The notes below the pieces were generated by a model. That model searched no databases. It was not told where the DNA came from and worked only from the letters and a program-made list of their open reading frames with translations. Positions 22,526 through 55,764 of a stretch of DNA of 64,000 bases are shown here, one piece after another. The position numbers were made by a program, and so were the translations under genes. The DNA lies in NCBI GenBank assembly GCA_014695345.1, contig JACJOC010000098.1, positions 62,001 to 126,000 of the forward strand, in the 5' to 3' direction. The DNA is from Cyanobacteria bacterium FACHB-471. Its GTDB lineage: Bacteria; Cyanobacteriota; Cyanobacteriia; Elainellales; Elainellaceae. Within the stretch, counting starts at the first letter, position 1, and every line of letters begins with the position of its first letter.

Positions 22526-23332
22526 TTAGCCAAAACGACCGCTAACGTAGTCTTGAGTTGCTTGCTGAGTTGGGTTGTTGAAAATATTTTGGGTGGGCGC
22601 ATATTCCACCAAGTAGCCCTGCTTGCCGCCTTTTTCAGTTGCTTGAGCGTTAAAGAAAGCAGTCATATCAGAGACACGAGAAGCCTGTTGCATGTTGTGC
22701 GTCACAATCACGATGGTGAACTGCTCTTTTAACTCGTGCATCAAGTCCTCAACCCGGAGGGTAGAAATGGGGTCAAGCGCAGAACAGGGTTCATCCATCA
22801 GCAGTACTTCGGGTTCGATGGCGATCGCCCGCGCAATGCAAAGTCGCTGCTGTTGACCACCCGAAATGGATAGACCGCTTTCCCTGAGCTTGTCTTTCAC
22901 CTCTTCCCAGAGCGCAGCTTTGCGGAGCGATCGCTCTACTAGCTCATCCATATCGCCCTTGTAACCATTGATCCGCGCCCCAAACGCAATGTTTTCATAG
23001 ATTGACTTAGGGAAAGGATTTGGCTTCTGAAACACCATTCCAATGCGGCGACGCAGCTCGGTAGCATCTACGCTCTTATCGTAAAGGTCAACTCCACGAT
23101 ACTGAATCGTACCCTTTACGTGAGCGCCTGGAATCAGGTCATTGAGACGGTTAAAGCAGCGCAGCACCGTGCTCTTACCACAACCCGATGGGCCAATAAA
23201 AGCAGTAATTTTGCGCTCAGGAACATCTACCGAGACATTGCTAACTGCCAAAAAAGAACCGTAATAGTAACTGGCTTGATCAACATGGAAAGCTGTGCCG
23301 GTGCCAACGGCTGTAGAAGGATTAGTCTGCAT
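22526..23332 (-). CDS. pstB: Phosphate ABC transporter ATP-binding protein PstB
   Basis: 268 residues. Walker [10 protein letters not shown], the Q-loop context [13 protein letters not shown], signature [10 protein letters not shown], Walker B VLLMDEP and switch histidine VTHNM are all intact. The [10 protein letters not shown] segment is specific to the phosphate-type ATPase. It drives phosphate import at the inner face of the cytoplasmic membrane with PstA and PstC. It is the last gene of the leftward pstS-pstC-pstA-pstB unit, 62 bases after pstA. Confidence 0.97.
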
Positions 23333-23394
23333 GAAATATTGACCTTTTTATTTCAAATAATTAGAACCAGCGAAGATACCAACACATTCAAGGA

Positions 23395-24315
23395 TCAAAC
23401 CTTTCCAGCCTGGAACCGATTTCGCAAATAGATTGCCGTTGCATTCATGATCAACAGCACTATCATCAAGACAATAATTCCAGCCGCAGCGTTAGTGTGA
23501 AACTCTGCCTGAGGACGACCTACCCAGTTAAAAATCTGAATCGGTAAAGCGCTAAAGCCACCTTCCCGAAAAGATGGAATGTACGGCACAAAAGTCTGCG
23601 CCCCAATCACAATTAGCGGCGCAGTTTCGCCGATCGCCCTAGATAAAGCCAAAATCGTACCCGTTAAAATACCTGGAAATGCCTGGGGCAGCACATGCTC
23701 TCTCACAGTCTGCCAGCGCGTTGCGCCCAGCGCCATTCCTGCCAGCCGCAGACTATCTGGCACTGCTCTCAAAGCTTCACGGGTCGCAACAATAATAACC
23801 GGCAAAATCAGCAATGCCAGCGTCAAGCCTGCGGCAAACACAGTACGACCACCCGTAATATCTACAAAAACGCGAACAAACACCGCCAAGCCGAGCAATC
23901 CATAGATGATGGATGGGACAGCGGCCAGGTTCCCGATGTTAATCTCAAGAATTCTGGTGAAGAGATTATCCGTAGAAAATTCTTCTAGGAAAATGCCTGC
24001 CCCAACTCCAATTGGAAAAGCCACAAGGGCAGTGATAAACAGCAACCAAACTGTGCCTACCAAGGGAGCTAAAATTCCTGCCCGTTCAGCGCTACGAGAG
24101 GGGAAGCTAGTGAGAAACTGCCAATTTAACCGAGGAAGCCCATCAACTAAAACATCAATCAGCAGAAATGCCAGCACAACCAATCCCGCTATGGTAGCAA
24201 CCCAGCTAGCAATTCTAAAAATATTGTCTAGCCTGTAGCGTCCAGCTAAGTTTGGGTTAAACCGCTGCTTAGCCAAATCATCCTGAGAAAAAGCGTTTGG
24301 ATCTGTAACTGTCAT
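23395..24315 (-). CDS. pstA: Phosphate ABC transporter permease PstA
   Basis: 306 residues with six transmembrane segments. It carries the permease EAA-type loop (EALRAVPDSLRLAGMALGATRWQTV), which docks onto PstB. The start ATG at 4315 of the 24-kb block overlaps the pstC stop by four bases (ATGA), so the two are translationally coupled. Family size is normal. Confidence 0.96.
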   Translation of the reverse strand: MTVTDPNAFSQDDLAKQRFNPNLAGRYRLDNIFRIASWVATIAGLVVLAFLLIDVLVDGLPRLNWQFLTSFPSRSAERAGILAPLVGTVWLLFITALVAFPIGVGAGIFLEEFSTDNLFTRILEINIGNLAAVPSIIYGLLGLAVFVRVFVDITGGRTVFAAGLTLALLILPVIIVATREALRAVPDSLRLAGMALGATRWQTVREHVLPQAFPGILTGTILALSRAIGETAPLIVIGAQTFVPYIPSFREGGFSALPIQIFNWVGRPQAEFHTNAAAGIIVLMIVLLIMNATAIYLRNRFQAGKV

Positions 24316-25253
24316 TCGTACTTCTCCCGGAAACGGCGAACAAACCAGAAACTAAAACCATTCAGCACCAGGGTGATCAAAAACAGAGTCATTCCCACTG
24401 CGAAGAGAGTGATGTACTCAATTGAACCAGTTGGCGCATCTCCTCCAGCAACCTGCACAATAAACGAAGTCATCGTCTGAATTGGCACACGAGGATCAAG
24501 CGTTAGCCTTGGGTTTTGTCCGGCTGCAATGGTGACAATCATTGTCTCCCCCACCGCTCGCGCTACTCCCAGAATGAAAGAAGCCACAATCCCCGAAAGA
24601 GCAGCCGGTAACACAACATTAGTAATCGTCTCACGCTTAGTTGCTCCTAAAGCATAGGAACCTTGTCGGAGACTTTGGGGCACAGCATAGATTGCATCTT
24701 CACTAAGGGAGGCGATCGTGGGTAGAATTGCAATTCCCAGTACAATTCCAGCACTTAAGCCGTTAAATTGCTGAAGACCAGGAACAAAAGGCCGCAGAAT
24801 CGGGGTTACAAGGAAGAGAGCAAAATAACCAAACACAACGGTTGGCACCCCTGCCAAAATTTCCAAGGCTGGCTTTAACCAGCTACGCACCTTGCGAGGT
24901 GCATATTCACTTAAACAAACAGCAGCCAGAATTCCCATTGGCATCGCCACAATTAGAGCGATTACAGATGTAAGCAGTGTGGCACTGATCAGCACCATGA
25001 TGCCGTATTGGGAATTGGTGAAGAGGGGAGTCCACTGGGTATCCGTCAGAAAATCCCAGATAGGCACTTCCTGAAAGAACAAAATGGTTTCAAAGACCAG
25101 AGTGAGAACGATTCCAACGGTTGTGAAAATGGAAAGAATGCCAAAAGCTCCAAATAAGCCTTTTGCTAACTTTTCCATTGTCTTGCTGAGCTTGCGGTTT
25201 GGTTGCCAGAGTCCACTGTTTTGAGATGGATCTGGTAATTGACTGGTAGTCAT
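24312..25253 (-). CDS. pstC: Phosphate ABC transporter permease PstC
   Basis: 313 residues, six transmembrane segments, EAA-type loop EDAIYAVPQSLRQGSYALGATK. The N-terminal 30 residues are cytoplasmic and polar. ATG 25253 fits. It is separated from pstS by 110 bases that hold a strong hairpin. Together with PstA it forms the membrane channel of the high-affinity phosphate importer. Confidence 0.96.
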   Translation of the reverse strand: MTTSQLPDPSQNSGLWQPNRKLSKTMEKLAKGLFGAFGILSIFTTVGIVLTLVFETILFFQEVPIWDFLTDTQWTPLFTNSQYGIMVLISATLLTSVIALIVAMPMGILAAVCLSEYAPRKVRSWLKPALEILAGVPTVVFGYFALFLVTPILRPFVPGLQQFNGLSAGIVLGIAILPTIASLSEDAIYAVPQSLRQGSYALGATKRETITNVVLPAALSGIVASFILGVARAVGETMIVTIAAGQNPRLTLDPRVPIQTMTSFIVQVAGGDAPTGSIEYITLFAVGMTLFLITLVLNGFSFWFVRRFREKYE

Positions 25254-25316
25254 AATGACAGGTTTTGGGAGGGGAGGCAGGGAACTAGCTCTCTAAGACG
25301 AATGCTTAAACTGAAG

Positions 25317-25352
25317 CCGATCGCCCCCATTTCACTGAATGGGGGCGATCGG
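25317..25352 (-). terminator. Attenuator hairpin between pstS and pstC
   Basis: A 15-base perfect inverted repeat (CCGATCGCCCCCATT and its complement) around TCACTG, 12 bases past the pstS stop and upstream of pstC. No T run follows in the leftward direction, so partial termination or 3'-end protection of the pstS message is likelier than a full stop. This would give more binding protein than permease. Confidence 0.65.
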
Positions 25353-25363
25353 CACTAGCCAAA

Positions 25364-26428
25364 CTACTGGGCCAAAATCTCAGGTAGGGACGCACCTTCG
25401 GCGGCTTCTGCAAACGCCGATCCCGTTACACCGTTCTCTAAACGAGCCTGTACCAATGGAGTAAGCTCATCACCCAGAGGTACATAGCCAACTTCTTCTA
25501 CTAATGAGGCGTTTGCCTCATCAACGTAGAAGTTAACAAACTCTTGAATATGGGGTTCTTCAAGCGCTGCGGTGCTGACATAGACAAAAAGCGGACGAGA
25601 GAGAGGAGCATAGCTACCGTCTAGCACAGTTTCAGCACTGGGTGCAACGCAACCTTCACCACCATCGACTTGAACTGCTTTGAGGCTATCTGCGTTCTCC
25701 TCATAGTAAGCGTAGCCAAAATATCCAAGTGCATTGGGGTCACCAACCACACCCTGAACGATCACGTTATCATCTTCGCTGGAGGTGTAGTCTCCACGAC
25801 TTGCACCTTCTTCACCGTTGACAACATCTGTGAAGTAATCGAATGTACCAGAATCAGTTCCGGGACCATAGAGTGCTAGAGGCGCATCTGGGAAAGAGGG
25901 GTCAACCTGGTTCCAGTTGCTAACAGTGCCCTGAGCTTCGGGTGCCCACATGGTGTTGAGCTGCTCAATGGTCATGCACTCTGCCCAATCATTTTCGGGG
26001 TTAACCACGACGGTCAGTGCGTCTTGAGCAACTGGGAGTTCGATGAATTCAATACCTGCTGCTTCACATGCAGCAATTTCATCTGCCTCAATGATGCGAG
26101 AAGCGTTGGAGATTTGGGTTTCACCAGCGCAGAACTTTTCAAAGCCACCACCCGTACCAGAGGTGCCAACCGTAACCTGAACACCATTGTTGGCAGCCAT
26201 AAACTCTTCTGCCATCGCCTCAGAGATGGGGAAGACGGTGCTGGAACCATCAATAGCGATAGTGCCACTCAGATCGCCGCCGCCCTCAGCTGGTGCTTCA
26301 GCCGTTTCGCCTTCGGGCGCTTCGGTGGAGGTGTCAGTGCCACCCCCCGCACAAGAGGACACAACGAAAGTGAGAGCAATTGAGGCGGCTAGATATGCAA
26401 AACGCTTTGAACGAAGTTGAAACAGCAT
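25364..26428 (-). CDS. pstS: Phosphate ABC transporter substrate-binding lipoprotein PstS
   Basis: 354 residues. A signal peptide with lipobox VSSC puts Cys26 as the lipidated residue. An acidic low-complexity linker (about 28-50) follows, then the phosphate-binding fold: [34 protein letters not shown] and [12 protein letters not shown], which supply Ser/Thr and Asp ligands for phosphate. It captures phosphate in the periplasm for PstC/PstA. It is first in the operon and is preceded by a candidate Pho box. Confidence 0.96.
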
Positions 26429-49809: not shown

Positions 49810-50502
49810 ATGTACTCAGTATCCTCACAACAACCCGAGACAGCCCGTCCTTTCCTCACTTGGCAAAGAATTTTGGACTGGGCTCAAGAACATTATCGCT
49901 GTCGGACTTTTGCCAAGGATGATAAGATCCCGGCTCGACCTGGACTCCTTTATTTAGTTCAACGAGGAGCTGTGCGATTAGTGGGCGAAGCTCAGGTGAG
50001 CGCAACTGCCAGCAACTCTTCTCGTCTACCCCGAATTAATTCTGAAGAAGCATTCTTAGGGTTTGTGGGTGCCGGACAGCCTTTTGAGATTGTGGCTCAG
50101 TCGCCTTTTACATTGCAGAGTTTTGCCCATGTTGACAACACTGCTGTGATTTGGATGTACTGGCACGACCTGGATAATTGGCCACATTTTCGCCGTGAAG
50201 TGCTGGATGCTTTTCGCTATCAGCATCAACGCAAGCTTTTGTGGCTAAGTACGCTGGGGCAGCGTCGTACCATTGACCGCCTGTTAGGGTTTTTGACCCT
50301 GCTAATTGAAGAGTTTGGTGAACCTTGCGAGGAGGGATATTGTCTGCCTTGGGCGTTGACTCACGCTCAAATTGGTAGCGCTATTGGCTCAACTCGGGTT
50401 ACGGTGACCCGCTTGATGGGTAAACTCCGACAGCGATCGCTAATTCGTACCTATGGTGACAATTTACTTTGTTTGCCTGCTGAGTCCGTCATTCAGCGAT
50501 AA
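49810..50502 (+). CDS. Crp/Fnr family transcription regulator
   Basis: 230 residues. An N-terminal cupin-like sensor region (RPGLLYLVQRGAVRLVGEA, then EEAFLGFVGAGQPFEIVAQSP) precedes a dimer helix and a C-terminal winged helix-turn-helix: LTHAQIGSAIGSTRVTVTRL. The Arg-Val-Thr-Val-Thr recognition helix is like that of NtcA/Crp proteins. The cAMP-binding Glu/Arg pair is not evident, so the effector is unknown. It does not match NtcA throughout, so that assignment is not made. ATG 49810. It ends before a strong terminator. Confidence 0.85.
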   Translation: MYSVSSQQPETARPFLTWQRILDWAQEHYRCRTFAKDDKIPARPGLLYLVQRGAVRLVGEAQVSATASNSSRLPRINSEEAFLGFVGAGQPFEIVAQSPFTLQSFAHVDNTAVIWMYWHDLDNWPHFRREVLDAFRYQHQRKLLWLSTLGQRRTIDRLLGFLTLLIEEFGEPCEEGYCLPWALTHAQIGSAIGSTRVTVTRLMGKLRQRSLIRTYGDNLLCLPAESVIQR

Positions 50503-50547
50503 GCCAGATATAGCTGTCGCCTCGCAGGTTCGGACAAAATAGCTAGG

Positions 50548-50580
50548 AGCGCCTCTGCTGACAGAAGGGGCGCTTTTTTT
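50548..50580 (+). terminator. Terminator of the Crp/Fnr gene
   Basis: AGCGCC and GGCGCT stems around a TCT/AGA inner pair, ending in seven T residues. The region is between convergent genes. Confidence 0.75.
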
Positions 50581-50587
50581 GCCATGT

Positions 50588-51667
50588 TTAGCGAATTTGG
50601 ACAAACCCAGACTCTTCAATTAGTGCCTGCCCTTGATCCGTAAGCAGTAAATTGGCGTAAGCTTCTCCAGCTTGTTGATCGATTTGACCATTTTGCTTGA
50701 CCACAACAAACAGCCTACGAGTGATCGGGTATGCGCCAGTTTGAAATGCATTGGAGTTGAGTTGAGTACGCTCAGCCGAGCCGCCACATTGAGAACCAAC
50801 AATCAACGGCTCAACGTAGGGTGCAACAAAAGAATCGCCAGAACGGGCACCCAAGGGAAGGGGCTTCACTGTGCATTGACCTACAATCTCCGGAGCCGAG
50901 GCATAGTAAATTCCACCTGGATTAGTTGAAACTTCTCGCAGGGCTTGCGTGGTGGTGTCGATAAAGCTGATATTGCTGCCAAAATTCTGTCCACCCAAAA
51001 TGTTTGCTACAAAAAATTCTACGGTGCCACCATCGTTGACCCGACGGGAGTAGGAGGTGATGGGTAAGTTAGGTCCGCCAACTTGGCTCCAGTTTGTAAT
51101 TTGCCCGGTGTAAATATCTCTCAGTTGATCCAGAGTTAGCCCAGGAAGGTTGAGGTTAGGGTTGACGGCGATCGCCATCCCTTCCAGTGCTACCGGAATT
51201 TCTCTCAAGGTAAAGCCACGCTGTTCTGCTTCTTGATATTCCTGGGTGTTGAGTGCCCGTGAAGACTGAGCAAATGTAAGCTGATTGTCGAGCAACATCC
51301 GAATGCCGCTAGCAGAGCCAGGTGTTTCTCCTAAAGGAGGATTGGTGTAGCGCAGTTGATAGCCAGACCAAACACTCTGAATTACAGGATCGATCTGCCC
51401 ACGAATAGGGGCCCAGGTTGTGCTGCCACCATAACTAAACAGACCAGAAGGAACGTTGGGTACTCCTGCAAAATCGTCTGCAACAGCGGCAGGCGGCGGT
51501 GCGAACGATGAATTGGAACCCGGTGTGGAAGAACCTGGAGTTCCTCGCCCCAACAAATCGCCAACCCCAGAACCGGAGCGGGTAAACCACCAAGCGCCAG
51601 CGCCAATCAAACCGATCGTGATCAGCAGAGAGAGGATCAAGGTAGGTGTCTCGTTCTTTTGAGCCAT
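50588..51667 (-). CDS. Membrane-anchored PstS-like phosphate/ligand-binding protein
   Basis: 359 residues from ATG 51667. The N-terminus MAQKNETPTLILSLLITIGL is a membrane anchor, followed by a short disordered linker. Residues about 75-355 form a type-2 periplasmic-binding fold of the PstS kind: YGGSTTWAPIRG, LTLDQLRDIYTGQITNWSQV, and SFVAPYVEPLIVG. It is not lipidated. Its anchor is nearly identical to that of the neighbouring type-1 binding protein. No transporter permease is nearby, so it may be a sensor or receptor rather than a transport component. It lies 96 bases after its upstream neighbour. Confidence 0.88.
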   Translation of the reverse strand: MAQKNETPTLILSLLITIGLIGAGAWWFTRSGSGVGDLLGRGTPGSSTPGSNSSFAPPPAAVADDFAGVPNVPSGLFSYGGSTTWAPIRGQIDPVIQSVWSGYQLRYTNPPLGETPGSASGIRMLLDNQLTFAQSSRALNTQEYQEAEQRGFTLREIPVALEGMAIAVNPNLNLPGLTLDQLRDIYTGQITNWSQVGGPNLPITSYSRRVNDGGTVEFFVANILGGQNFGSNISFIDTTTQALREVSTNPGGIYYASAPEIVGQCTVKPLPLGARSGDSFVAPYVEPLIVGSQCGGSAERTQLNSNAFQTGAYPITRRLFVVVKQNGQIDQQAGEAYANLLLTDQGQALIEESGFVQIR

Positions 51668-51763
51668 AGTTGCTGAGGTGCGATCGCACACCCTTTATAG
51701 TTCTACAGAATAGTTCTATAGATTTAAGGCTTGATTAACTACTTTGAATTGTTGAAGCAGTCG

Positions 51764-53197
51764 CTATTGCACAGGCACGAAATCGTAACCATAACCAGAA
51801 CGAGATCCTGGTTCAACGATCACAAGCTGCTCTGCCTGATTGCGATCGCCCGACGGCAAAAACCGAATCGTACCCGTTGCGCCCTCGGTCGCAAAGTTGC
51901 TAGCACTTAGCGTTTGTTCAATACCTTCACGGGTCGGGTTACTTTTCAGACCCGCAACTAAAGCCTGCGTTGCGTCATGGGCCATAGCTGTTCGCCAGTT
52001 AACGTCGCCTCCCCAGAAGTTTCGAGAAGATTGAACAAACGCTGCTTGAGGGTCCGAGAGAATGTGCCAGGGCACTGCAACCACCATATCAACAGCAGCT
52101 TCTCCACCTACCTGAAGCGTCTTGGGATTGTAAATACTATCTCCACCGAGTAAGCGCAATTGCCCACGATTGACCGTTACGACTTGCAGTGCTTGATCAA
52201 GCGTAGCTGTATTGGCAATCAAAACTAGGACTTCAGCGTCCTGTGAAGCAGCTTGTTGAAGCGTATCTGCGGCGCTAAAAGCGGGGTCAGCCAGGTCAAA
52301 CTCTGCCAAAATCTGTCCGCCATCCCCGTAAAGTGCCGTTGTGAATTCATCCTTGAGTGACTGGCTGTAGTCACTCTCAGAATTAAAGTAAATTGCAGCA
52401 TTTTGAGCTTGCAAGGTGTTGACCATGTAGCGAGAAAGCGCTGCAGCAGTAAAGCGATCGCTGGGCACCGTACGAAACACATAGTTACCAACTTCCGAAA
52501 GCTGCATTGACGTACTTGTTGGCGAAATCATCACTAGTCCAGAATTCTGATAAATTTCTGCCGCTGCCAGCGTAGCCTCACTACCAAAGTGCCCGACCAC
52601 ACCCAACACCTCTGAGTTTTCTGTTAGCGCTTCAGCAACCTGTCGGGAGACCTGGGGGTCGTTGTCATCATTGGCAATCAGCACCTTTAGCGGCACACCG
52701 TTGATGCCACCTGCCTGGTTAATTTCAGTTTGAGCCTGAGCAACACCCCGAAGAATTTCTAGAGCCGGATTTGCAGAAGTTGCTGCTGGAACCGGAACGG
52801 CAATGCTGTAAGCGGTCTGATCGCCGATTTGAGCATTGTTGAGATAGATCAATGCCTCCGGATCGTTTCGATTAGCCTGGAGCGCTGCTTCTAGATCGGA
52901 AACGGCCTGCTCAAAGTTGCCGGAGGCGATCGCTTCCACGCCTGCCTGTTTTTCAGGCGATGTCTCCGCAAACAAGACTCTTTCTCCTGAACTCAGGCGC
53001 TCTTGAGTCGGTGTGTTGCTTGCATTTTGAGGAGAATCAGAATCACCATTGCCATTTGTCGCTGTTGAATTTTGAGCTCCTGGAGTCAGCGCTCCTGGAG
53101 CAAACCGATTCAACACCCACCAGGCTCCACCACCAAGCAGCGCTAACGTCAGCAACAGGGACACGATTAAAACAGGAGTTTCATTTTTCTGAGCCAT
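51764..53197 (-). CDS. Membrane-anchored type-1 (Leu/Ile/Val-type) periplasmic-binding protein
   Basis: 477 residues, ATG 53197. Anchor MAQKNETPVLIVSLLLTLAL, a Ser/Asn-rich linker, then a short TPR-like helical hairpin at about 84-115 (GVEAIASGNFEQAVSDLEAA). A type-1 binding fold follows, of the amino-acid/branched-chain kind (ALEILRGVAQAQTEINQAGG; GVVGHFGSEATLAAAEIYQN; RTVPSDRF). It probably binds an amino acid or similar small solute outside the membrane. It lies between the kinase gene (29 bases upstream) and the PstS-like gene and shares its anchor with the latter. Confidence 0.9.
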   Translation of the reverse strand: MAQKNETPVLIVSLLLTLALLGGGAWWVLNRFAPGALTPGAQNSTATNGNGDSDSPQNASNTPTQERLSSGERVLFAETSPEKQAGVEAIASGNFEQAVSDLEAALQANRNDPEALIYLNNAQIGDQTAYSIAVPVPAATSANPALEILRGVAQAQTEINQAGGINGVPLKVLIANDDNDPQVSRQVAEALTENSEVLGVVGHFGSEATLAAAEIYQNSGLVMISPTSTSMQLSEVGNYVFRTVPSDRFTAAALSRYMVNTLQAQNAAIYFNSESDYSQSLKDEFTTALYGDGGQILAEFDLADPAFSAADTLQQAASQDAEVLVLIANTATLDQALQVVTVNRGQLRLLGGDSIYNPKTLQVGGEAAVDMVVAVPWHILSDPQAAFVQSSRNFWGGDVNWRTAMAHDATQALVAGLKSNPTREGIEQTLSASNFATEGATGTIRFLPSGDRNQAEQLVIVEPGSRSGYGYDFVPVQ

Positions 53198-53226
53198 AGC
53201 AAGTTCGCACCTCTCTTACATGTCTC

Positions 53227-54732
53227 TTAGATGAAGCGGGACAGCAGCGCATAAATCAGGCGGAAAATCACTGTGATGGCGATCGCCAGCAGTCCTACCA
53301 ACCCCGCCAGAATGACCAGGGTCGAAAGCGATTCTCCTGTTCGCAGCACCACAAAGGCAACCACCGCTAGTGTCACTGCCCCAATAATCGGCAAGTCCCA
53401 TCCTTCAATGACGCGACGGGTTTGAAGCAAGACTAAAACGGCGATCGCCAATAGCGGTAACCCAGCACTGAAGAGCAAAGACCCAGAAAAGCTATAAATG
53501 GCGATCGCCAGCAGCCCTGCTTCAAAGCCAGTAAATCCAGCGCCTCTAATCAATTCCAAGGTCGAAAAGGGGCGTACAGCAGGCTGCATTCCGGGTTGAG
53601 CAGCCGGGTGCATCGCGACAGGAGCGGGTGTAGGCGTAGGTGCAGGGGATGGCGCAGGCGCAGGACTAGAAGGAGGGGGTGCCTTCCTAACAGCAGCGGC
53701 TGATCCAGATGAGGGAACTGGGGGTGGCGGAGGCGGTGGTGGGGGTGGAGGCGGGGGCGGTGATGCAGGTCTGGCAGTTGGGGCGGCAAGCGCTTCTAGC
53801 ACCTCATCCGCCGACTGAAAGCGCTGTTTAGGAGACTGCAGCAGCATTCGGTTGAGGATCGCTTCCAGGCGATCGCTCACCTGAGCATAGGCTCGCCACG
53901 TCCATTCGTTGCCATACGAGTCATACAGTTCGTCGGGTTGCTTTCCCGTCAACAGCGTAATGCAGGTAACGCCAAGCGCGTAGAGATCAGTCGCTGGATA
54001 AACCACGTTACCCGCCATTTGCTCGGGTGGCGCAAAACCCATTGAGTAAATTCCAGTTGAGGCCTTGCCTCCTTGAACTGCGGCGGCTGAAGTCAGCTGC
54101 TTGACCGCCCCAAAATCTAGCAAAAACAGCCGACCGTCCCGGTGGCGCATGATGTTAGAAGGCTTGATGTCACGGTGAATTGAGCCGTTGCTATGAACAA
54201 ACCTCAGCACCTTGAGAATTTCGGTCAGCACTTCTAAGACTTCTGCTTCAGAGAACTGTTTCTTTTGCTCCAGTTCCCGCTCCATGTCCTGCCCATCGAT
54301 GAACTCTTGCACCAGATAAAAGAAGCGATCGGGCTTATTAGGAGTGCGACTGGGTACATCTAATTCAAAAAAAGCCAGCAGATCAGGAATCTGAGGATGT
54401 TTATTGCCCAATTCCTCCAAGACCTCGCCTTCCCGCTCAAATAGCTTTTGAGCCATTTCTAGCTGGGCCGGACTGAGATCACCCGCAGGCTGAAACTGCT
54501 TCACCACACACTGGCGCATCGCAGGCGTGTAGCGATCGCGGGCCAAGTACGCAGCCCCAAAACCACCCCTGCCCAGCAGCTTTAGCGGTACATAGCGCCC
54601 CACCAAAATCAACGGCATCCCACAGGCTGTGCAATATTTTTGCTGCACTGTCTTCAGCGTCGCGCTGTTATCCAGGTCAGCAAAATGGTTGGCGGGTCGA
54701 GGGCAAACTGGACGGGTGCAGTGGACTTCCAT
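53227..54732 (-). CDS. Four-cysteine Ser/Thr protein kinase with C-terminal membrane helices
   Basis: 501 residues. The N-terminal Cys pairs (C5, C10, C34, C37) look like a zinc ribbon. The kinase domain has GRGGFGAAYLARDR, VKQF (ATP-binding Lys), HRDIKPSNIM (catalytic loop), LDFGAVKQL (DFG) and PPEQMAG. After a poly-Pro linker (about 295-365) come three or more hydrophobic helices (from about 395). The membrane helices place the kinase inside the membrane next to the two tethered binding proteins encoded downstream. It starts 12 bases after the rbcR stop, so it may share its transcript. Confidence 0.92.
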   Translation of the reverse strand: MEVHCTRPVCPRPANHFADLDNSATLKTVQQKYCTACGMPLILVGRYVPLKLLGRGGFGAAYLARDRYTPAMRQCVVKQFQPAGDLSPAQLEMAQKLFEREGEVLEELGNKHPQIPDLLAFFELDVPSRTPNKPDRFFYLVQEFIDGQDMERELEQKKQFSEAEVLEVLTEILKVLRFVHSNGSIHRDIKPSNIMRHRDGRLFLLDFGAVKQLTSAAAVQGGKASTGIYSMGFAPPEQMAGNVVYPATDLYALGVTCITLLTGKQPDELYDSYGNEWTWRAYAQVSDRLEAILNRMLLQSPKQRFQSADEVLEALAAPTARPASPPPPPPPPPPPPPPVPSSGSAAAVRKAPPPSSPAPAPSPAPTPTPAPVAMHPAAQPGMQPAVRPFSTLELIRGAGFTGFEAGLLAIAIYSFSGSLLFSAGLPLLAIAVLVLLQTRRVIEGWDLPIIGAVTLAVVAFVVLRTGESLSTLVILAGLVGLLAIAITVIFRLIYALLSRFI

Positions 54733-54744
54733 AAACCTCGTGAC

Positions 54745-55764
54745 TTACTTTCCCCCAGGCTTGGAGGTGGTTGCCTCCAATGAGAGCGGTTCAACCGGCT
54801 CAGCTGCATCTTGATTAATCCTATCGTCTACCGCAACAGGCTTATGGCTGGCAAACTGCGGCAAGATCTCTTTAAAGAAAGCCTCTGCCGCCTTAGAGCG
54901 ATAGCGATTGGGATTGATAATCACCGAAAGTGTGCGATTGACAACCACATCTTCAATCCGGGCGCGATGCAATACGCCCATTTGCAGCTCTTTTTCAATC
55001 GCTGAGATTGATACAAAAGCAGCACCTAACCCAGCCTGAACTGCATTCTTAATTGCTTCAATCGAATTTAGCTCCATTTCGATCTTGAGGCGACGAGTTT
55101 CGATGCCGCAGCGCGTCAAAACTTGGTCAATCACCTTACGAATTGTGGATTGAGAATCGAGGGTAATGAACTGGAGTTTATAAAGATCTTCTTTTTGCAC
55201 AGTGCCCAAATGGGCAAGAGAATGCAAAACAGGTAAAATCAGCGCAAGTTCGTCTTCTGCGTAGGGAATAATTTCTAGCGAGTCCTGTAATTCAGGAGGC
55301 ACTTCACCGCCGATAATGGCCAGATCAATCTGCCCATTTGCTACGCTCCAGGCAGTGCGGCGAGTGGAATGGACGTGAAGCTGTACCGCTACATCTGGGT
55401 AATTCTGCCGAAACAAGCCAATCATGCGGGGCAGCAAATACGTTCCTGTAGTTTGGCTTGCCCCCACAATCAAGGTGCCACCTTGAAGATTCTGTAAATC
55501 TTCGATCGCTCGACAGGTTTCCTGGCACAGCGTCAAAATCCGATCGCCATAGCTGAGCAACAGATGCCCCGCTTCGGTCAACTGTGCCCGCCTGCCACCC
55601 CGGTCAAACAAAGGCACATCCAACTGTCGTTCCAGGTTTTGCACCTGAAGGCTAACGGCAGGTTGGGAAACATAGAGACTATCAGCGGCACGCTTAAAGC
55701 TTCCCTCGGCAGCGATCGCCTTAAGAATCCGCAACTGGTCCAAAGTAAAAGGAAGGTCAGACAT
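54745..55764 (-). CDS. rbcR: LysR-type regulator, RbcR/CmpR-like
   Basis: 339 residues. The N-terminal winged helix ([38 protein letters not shown]) is followed by two effector-binding lobes ([40 protein letters not shown]). This sequence matches the cyanobacterial RbcR group very well. RbcR regulates carbon-fixation and related genes, with small metabolites as effectors. The C-terminal tail (about 300-339) is low complexity. The gene ends 12 bases before the kinase start, so it may head an operon. Confidence 0.92.

Follow-up and report, generated by a model that had tools for sequence, protein, structure and literature searches.

A four-cysteine Ser/Thr kinase and two solute-binding proteins with a common membrane anchor probably form a nutrient-sensing receptor in cyanobacteria

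A Ser/Thr kinase (KIN) and two solute-binding proteins (SBP1 and SBP2), encoded in a row within the 64-kb window (the whole stretch of DNA analyzed here, 64,000 nucleotides long), probably make up a single nutrient-sensing receptor by which protein phosphorylation is switched, since related species fuse the kinase to the same binding proteins. In the form that we consider likely, the receptor is split and accepts several inputs, with an amino-acid sensor and an oxyanion sensor joining one kinase via a shared helix. This reading was drawn from domain assignments, predicted topology, gene order, co-occurrence, same-locus fusions and the shared anchor of the two binding proteins, all of them read from sequence. 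The three genes lie on the minus strand, with 29 bp between the first two and 96 bp between the second and the third, and the earlier note had given their coordinates, leftward orientation and gaps correctly. The locus comprises the following features.

54745..55764, minus strand, LysR-family regulator, ending 12 bp before the kinase gene, its place conserved, 81-98% identity
53227..54732, minus strand, KIN, Ser/Thr kinase with 4-Cys prefix, Hanks kinase domain, Pro-rich linker and 4-helix membrane module
54610..54723, minus strand, 4-Cys prefix domain of KIN, with C5, C10, C34 and C37 invariant in 19 orthologues
53233..53562, minus strand, 4-helix membrane module of KIN, with conserved FTGFEGG, Q437, R440, E443, D446 and FRLIY
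51764..53197, minus strand, SBP1, membrane-anchored LIV-type (Peripla_BP_6) binding protein
53108..53197, minus strand, SBP1 anchor, MAQKNETP and a single transmembrane helix (...LGGGAWW)
52823..53002, minus strand, conserved juxtamembrane helical segment of SBP1, GE..L...K..G..A...G....A...L......NDPEALIYLNNA, kept in fused forms
50588..51667, minus strand, SBP2, membrane-anchored PstS-type (PBP_like_2) binding protein
51578..51667, minus strand, SBP2 anchor, MAQKNETP and a single transmembrane helix (...IGAGAWWF)
50545..50577, no strand assigned, terminator-like hairpin with a T-run, in the gap where SBP2 and the Crp-like gene converge
49810..50502, plus strand, convergent Crp-family regulator, the conserved downstream boundary of the block

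The start of SBP2 was taken as the ATG at 51667, with the gene ending at 50588; a longer GTG reading frame from 51691 is not its likely start. The LysR-family and the convergent Crp-like neighbors were absent from the earlier note. The LysR gene, which is possibly co-transcribed with the kinase, is extremely conserved (81-98% identity) even in distant cyanobacteria, and among its solved relatives with a named role the best match regulates a Rubisco operon (5y2v, E 4e-32). A promoter scan of the locus yielded sites no more numerous than in shuffled sequences, and operon status therefore rests on spacing and conservation.

KIN proved to be the four-cysteine Ser/Thr kinase with C-terminal membrane helices that had been proposed for this gene. 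Its prefix (residues 4-41) matched 4Cys_prefix_kin (NF045510) with 40.9 bits, above the curated cut-off of 24, and is followed by a Hanks domain (residues 48-312; Pkinase, E 6e-36), which together place the protein among the 4-Cys prefix Ser/Thr kinases, as well as by the Pro-rich linker and a module of four predicted hydrophobic membrane helices at the C-terminus (residues 391-500). The catalytic K78, HRDIKPSN and DFG are conserved across 19 orthologues, and no TPR domain was found in the protein. A fold search with the KIN model returned kinase domains throughout and was uninformative on the 4-helix module. In the own genome of the locus the 4-Cys prefix has 12 matches but the 4-helix module occurs just once; overall, the module was detected in 112 of 195 cyanobacterial genomes and is missing from fused kinases.

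The two binding proteins belong to different folds, the type-1 (Leu/Ile/Val-like) and PstS-like type-2 classes to which they had been assigned before, and each has a single N-terminal helix and, again as described earlier, no lipobox cysteine. SBP1 matched Peripla_BP_6 (E 5e-35), and three of its conserved residues (S206, T229 and D353) fall, in the alignment, on the pocket positions of LIV-type amino-acid binders of solved structure. With both the family match and these Ser, Thr and acidic positions, SBP1 falls within the LIV-type amino-acid-binding proteins. We take these positions to be those that hold the carboxylate and amine of the amino acid in the LIV family. Because these residues match those of solved amino-acid binders, the pocket appears amino-acid-like, and an amino acid is the predicted ligand class. 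SBP2 matched PBP_like_2 (E 2e-26), and its predicted model, in which confidence is modest (pLDDT 65) and from which only the fold was taken, resembled PstS (Z 22.9 to 4q8r). Its likely ligand is an oxyanion. Phosphate itself is uncertain, because the phosphate-binding SGT of solved PstS proteins is replaced in the alignment by GGT (G213-G214-T215, invariant in 14 orthologues) and the match to the PstS family TIGR02136 reached 126.7 bits, below the cut-off of 206.6. No cognate PstCAB permease was found encoded alongside SBP2.

Despite their unrelated folds, SBP1 and SBP2 both open with MAQKNETP and one helix, and 20 of their first 30 residues are identical, a likeness that the earlier note had pointed out and that is not due to chance. 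At the DNA level, third codon positions of the identical residues agree at only 41%. This strong divergence of synonymous sites rules out a recent gene conversion or DNA copy as the source of the common anchor and means that the likeness has been kept by selection. Across genomes, anchors of 30 SBP1 and 13 SBP2 proteins share a mean cross-fold identity of 53% over 28 residues; in the 28 residues that follow, identity falls to 10%, and a shuffled null gives 13%. In 24 genomes the anchor score of SBP1-SBP2 pairs from different genomes (82) was no lower than that of SBP1-SBP1 pairs (79), and pairs from within one genome were more alike still (93.5; 0 of 20000 permutations), a figure to which phylogeny contributes, so that the apparent co-variation is confounded by it. 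In one genome (G083) both anchors have changed jointly, to MAKSGKET and MARGKET. The exact pattern M-x-Q-K-N-E-T occurs in the 7.1-Mb genome at the SBP1 and SBP2 genes only, and its presence in other cyanobacteria, which had been suggested as a check, was borne out by 41 matches in the 195 genomes, namely 28 SBP1 starts, 11 SBP2 starts, one WD40 propeller and one contig end. The idea that many kinds of protein carry the anchor as a general feature was thus rejected, 39 of the 41 matches being starts of SBP1 or SBP2. The exceptional propeller, of seven repeats, carries the anchor MSQKNETTT (L083:4238-5290, plus strand, genome G137), and its gene lies directly upstream of one for a large kinase-containing multidomain protein. 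Tandem SBP1 pairs that have the same diverged anchor within each pair were also seen (MAKGSKET in L136:5950-8909 and SPSGGKE in L139:5851-9036).

In a census of the 195 genomes, in which the kinase was scored by its 4-helix module at E below 1e-10 (101 genomes), kinase and anchored SBP occurred together in 95 genomes, the kinase alone in 6, an anchored SBP alone in 14 and neither in 80 (Fisher p about 4e-32, a value uncorrected for and confounded by phylogeny). Joint presence extends, by reading of the tables, across about 20 families. The expected co-location of the genes was found as well: an anchored SBP lies directly downstream on the kinase's strand in 68 of the 101 kinase genomes. Every linked SBP follows the kinase on the kinase's own strand, in many cases no more than 100 bp away, and none was found nearby upstream or on the opposite strand. 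The arrangement of LysR gene, kinase, SBP1 and/or SBP2 and reverse Crp-like gene recurs in Leptolyngbyaceae, Oculatella, Moorena, Anabaena, Calothrix and others, and some genomes have three tethered SBPs behind one kinase, as in the order KIN-SBP2-SBP1-SBP2 of L135. About a third of the kinase genomes have no SBP directly downstream, six of them are without a separate anchored SBP, and some anchored SBPs stand alone, far from the kinase. Several SBP-only genomes do possess either a kinase that has diverged or a fused one (L138, L142, L103, L105). Among the exceptions that were looked at, the fusion is in place in G154 and G161, the kinase found at the locus in G005 has diverged in its membrane part, and G150 encodes a kinase that has diverged to 43% identity.

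A further link between the parts comes from such fusions. In two genomes of one genus (L103 and L105) the locus reads LysR gene, a single frame encoding 4-Cys kinase, one helix and SBP2, and Crp-like gene, with identities of 87.6% for LysR, 56% to KIN over residues 1-315, 45% for SBP2 and 76% for the Crp-like protein. In this fusion a linker and a single helix ending in GGGWW precede the SBP2 domain, and the 4-helix module is absent. L114 and L115 encode fusions of SBP1 with kinases that share 58-60% identity with KIN; further kinase-helix-SBP1 fusions were found in L036, L040, L043, L048, L054, L070-L074, L113 and L116-L120, and kinase-helix-SBP2 fusions in L108 and L109. The helix of several fused forms resembles that of the free anchor, so that the cytoplasmic QKNET tail may be the part special to unfused SBPs. 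Taken together, the fusion of the kinase to SBP2 in place, the kinase-SBP1 fusions and the near-obligate co-occurrence strongly support the kinase-receptor link that the earlier note had put forward as inference. Microcoleus-type single chains of about 900 aa (L054, L055, L057-L059) combine a winged-helix-like N-terminus with kinase, membrane helix and SBP1.

SBP1 and SBP2 domains with a membrane helix also follow N-termini of other effectors, including CHAT (L102:2393-4525; by resemblance L104:4726-6861), caspase (L107:426-2582; by resemblance L121:3373-7008) and effector-associated-like or response-regulator-like parts (L077:4975-7221, L110:2945-4621, and another N-terminal part in L111). 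The CHAT and caspase fusions thus place nutrient-type sensors on cell-death-type effectors. Being fused to kinases, CHAT, caspase and other N-termini, domains of the SBP1 and SBP2 types are, by their architecture, extracytoplasmic sensor domains of membrane signaling proteins. The own genome additionally encodes, on contig C49, a 762-aa protein (L081:3240-5528, minus strand) with a kinase-like region that lacks HRD and DFG and has no kinase HMM match, together with a membrane segment and a weak match to a PstS-like domain (PF12849, E 2.9e-6). Its gene sits among genes resembling those for tail tube and sheath of contractile injection systems, and the protein is reminiscent of CisA from Streptomyces, a membrane protein needed for firing whose outer domain is SBP-like (PMC12237407).

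We propose that SBP1, with its amino-acid-like pocket, and SBP2, with its PstS-like pocket, would be held in the periplasm on single N-in/C-out helices, and that these helices may dock onto the 4-helix module of the kinase via the shared QKNET tail and GGGxWW helix. Closure of either SBP on its ligand would then act through its helix on the 4-helix module and alter the activity of the cytoplasmic 4-Cys kinase, while the kinase-SBP fusions would do the same signaling within one chain. Docking and physical contact are what we infer here, and statements on ligand identity, the sign of regulation and the kinase substrates have the same standing.

The anchor might instead belong to a general sensing or retention kit, in which the QKNET helix serves as a membrane-retention or sorting signal, the genes are neighbors through co-regulation, for example with the LysR gene, and the SBPs do not control KIN. 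The solitary anchored SBPs far from the kinase, the single WD40 propeller bearing the anchor and the SBP domains fused to other effectors agree with such a role; however, it would leave unexplained the in-place fusion of a KIN-type kinase to SBP2, the SBP1 fusions of near relatives and the co-occurrence of kinase and SBPs even where they are unlinked, and a mere retention helix would need no conserved QKNE tail on two folds. We therefore consider this explanation unlikely. Even less probable, in our estimation, is that the SBPs capture substrates for ABC importers encoded at other loci, with the kinase regulating that uptake. Both folds are those of importer SBPs, and a complete Pst system lies in the window at 22526-26428, yet that system has its own lipoprotein-type PstS, whereas SBP1 and SBP2 have no lipobox. 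As the earlier note had stated, no ABC permease or ATPase adjoins the three genes, and a permease belonging to them, which would have spoken for uptake, did not emerge as a conserved neighbor in 82 SBP loci, where just scattered single ABC matches were found; an adjacent importer was rejected on these grounds. Furthermore, the same SBP domains are covalently attached to kinases, CHAT and caspase, where solute hand-over is not an evident role. An indirect, chemoreceptor-like arrangement, in which the SBPs reach the kinase only through a third membrane protein, has a precedent in the separate membrane transmitter of the GlnH-GlnX-PknG system (PMC6069109, PMC9769921). But KIN has its own 4-helix module, no third gene is conserved in the block, and the fusions manage without any transmitter, which makes this arrangement very improbable.

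The split receptor kinase could be one instance of a wider plug-in system, a reading on which we are evenly divided, in which the 4-helix module is a socket for interchangeable periplasmic sensors bearing a QKNET-GGGxWW plug, one kinase integrates several nutrients, and fusion of plug and kinase replaces the socket. The sensors would be of the amino-acid type, the PstS type and, in one genome, perhaps a WD40 propeller. Partners other than KIN are possible for anchored SBPs, because the anchor occurs on the propeller encoded beside another kinase-containing protein (L083) and SBPs are fused to CHAT, caspase and other effectors.

The activation of bacterial Ser/Thr kinases has been called an outstanding question (PMC6069109), and a term search through a review from 2025 on Ser/Thr phosphorylation in cyanobacteria turned up no mention of a ligand (PMC11863333). 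The present locus names a kinase together with candidate ligand-binding subunits and predicts a ligand class. Natural fusions can be expressed as single-chain receptors, which makes ligand-to-kinase signaling directly testable in a widespread cyanobacterial family, and helix-mediated assembly of receptors can be tested cleanly on the helix that the unrelated folds have in common. With four helices behind its kinase domain, KIN conforms to the cbSTKI-TM kinases (3-6 helices, no other known domain), a class that includes SpkF and was defined in a 2007 survey that named no partner (PMC2176072). Synechocystis SpkF (PMC2176072, PMC11863333) and its class share this layout behind the catalytic domain with KIN but have no ligand-binding partner described in the literature searched.

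Fused kinase-SBP receptors, in contrast, are already known: papers from 2005 and 2007 mention Nostoc kinases joined to an ANF receptor, a Streptomyces kinase carries a solute-binding domain (PMC1262709, PMC2176072), and MSMEG_1200 is a further case (PMC6069109). These receptors likewise combine a cytoplasmic kinase, a membrane helix and an extracytoplasmic SBP, and SBP1-type fusions such as L036 and L070 are of this kind. The window differs in having three separate genes, the single polypeptide being found in L103, L105, L114 and L115, in the four helices of KIN instead of one, and in that several SBPs can serve one kinase. This split, multi-input form with a shared anchor appears to be undescribed in the literature searched, a search that most subscription papers lie outside.

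The nearest tested functional precedent is the GlnH-GlnX-PknG system of Actinobacteria, where a 4-helix membrane protein relays control from an SBP to a Ser/Thr kinase (PMC6069109, PMC9769921). The two systems have in common an operon, putative in the cyanobacterial case, that pairs a Ser/Thr kinase bearing a Cys-based metal-site domain (a rubredoxin domain in PknG) with a signaling extracytoplasmic SBP, a 4-helix membrane element that links the parts, and an amino-acid ligand; the signaling role of the SBP, the link and the ligand are predictions in our case. Their parts are nevertheless differently built, and the KIN-SBP system is therefore not a member of the GlnH-GlnX-PknG family. PknG is soluble and has a TPR domain, whereas KIN has four membrane helices and no TPR; GlnX stands as a protein of its own, with two large domains in the periplasm, while the 4-helix element resides here within the kinase; and GlnH is a lipoprotein, in contrast to the helix-anchored SBPs without a lipobox cysteine, two different folds of which have one common anchor. 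By this comparison, the cyanobacterial system would work like its actinobacterial counterpart while being assembled in a different way.
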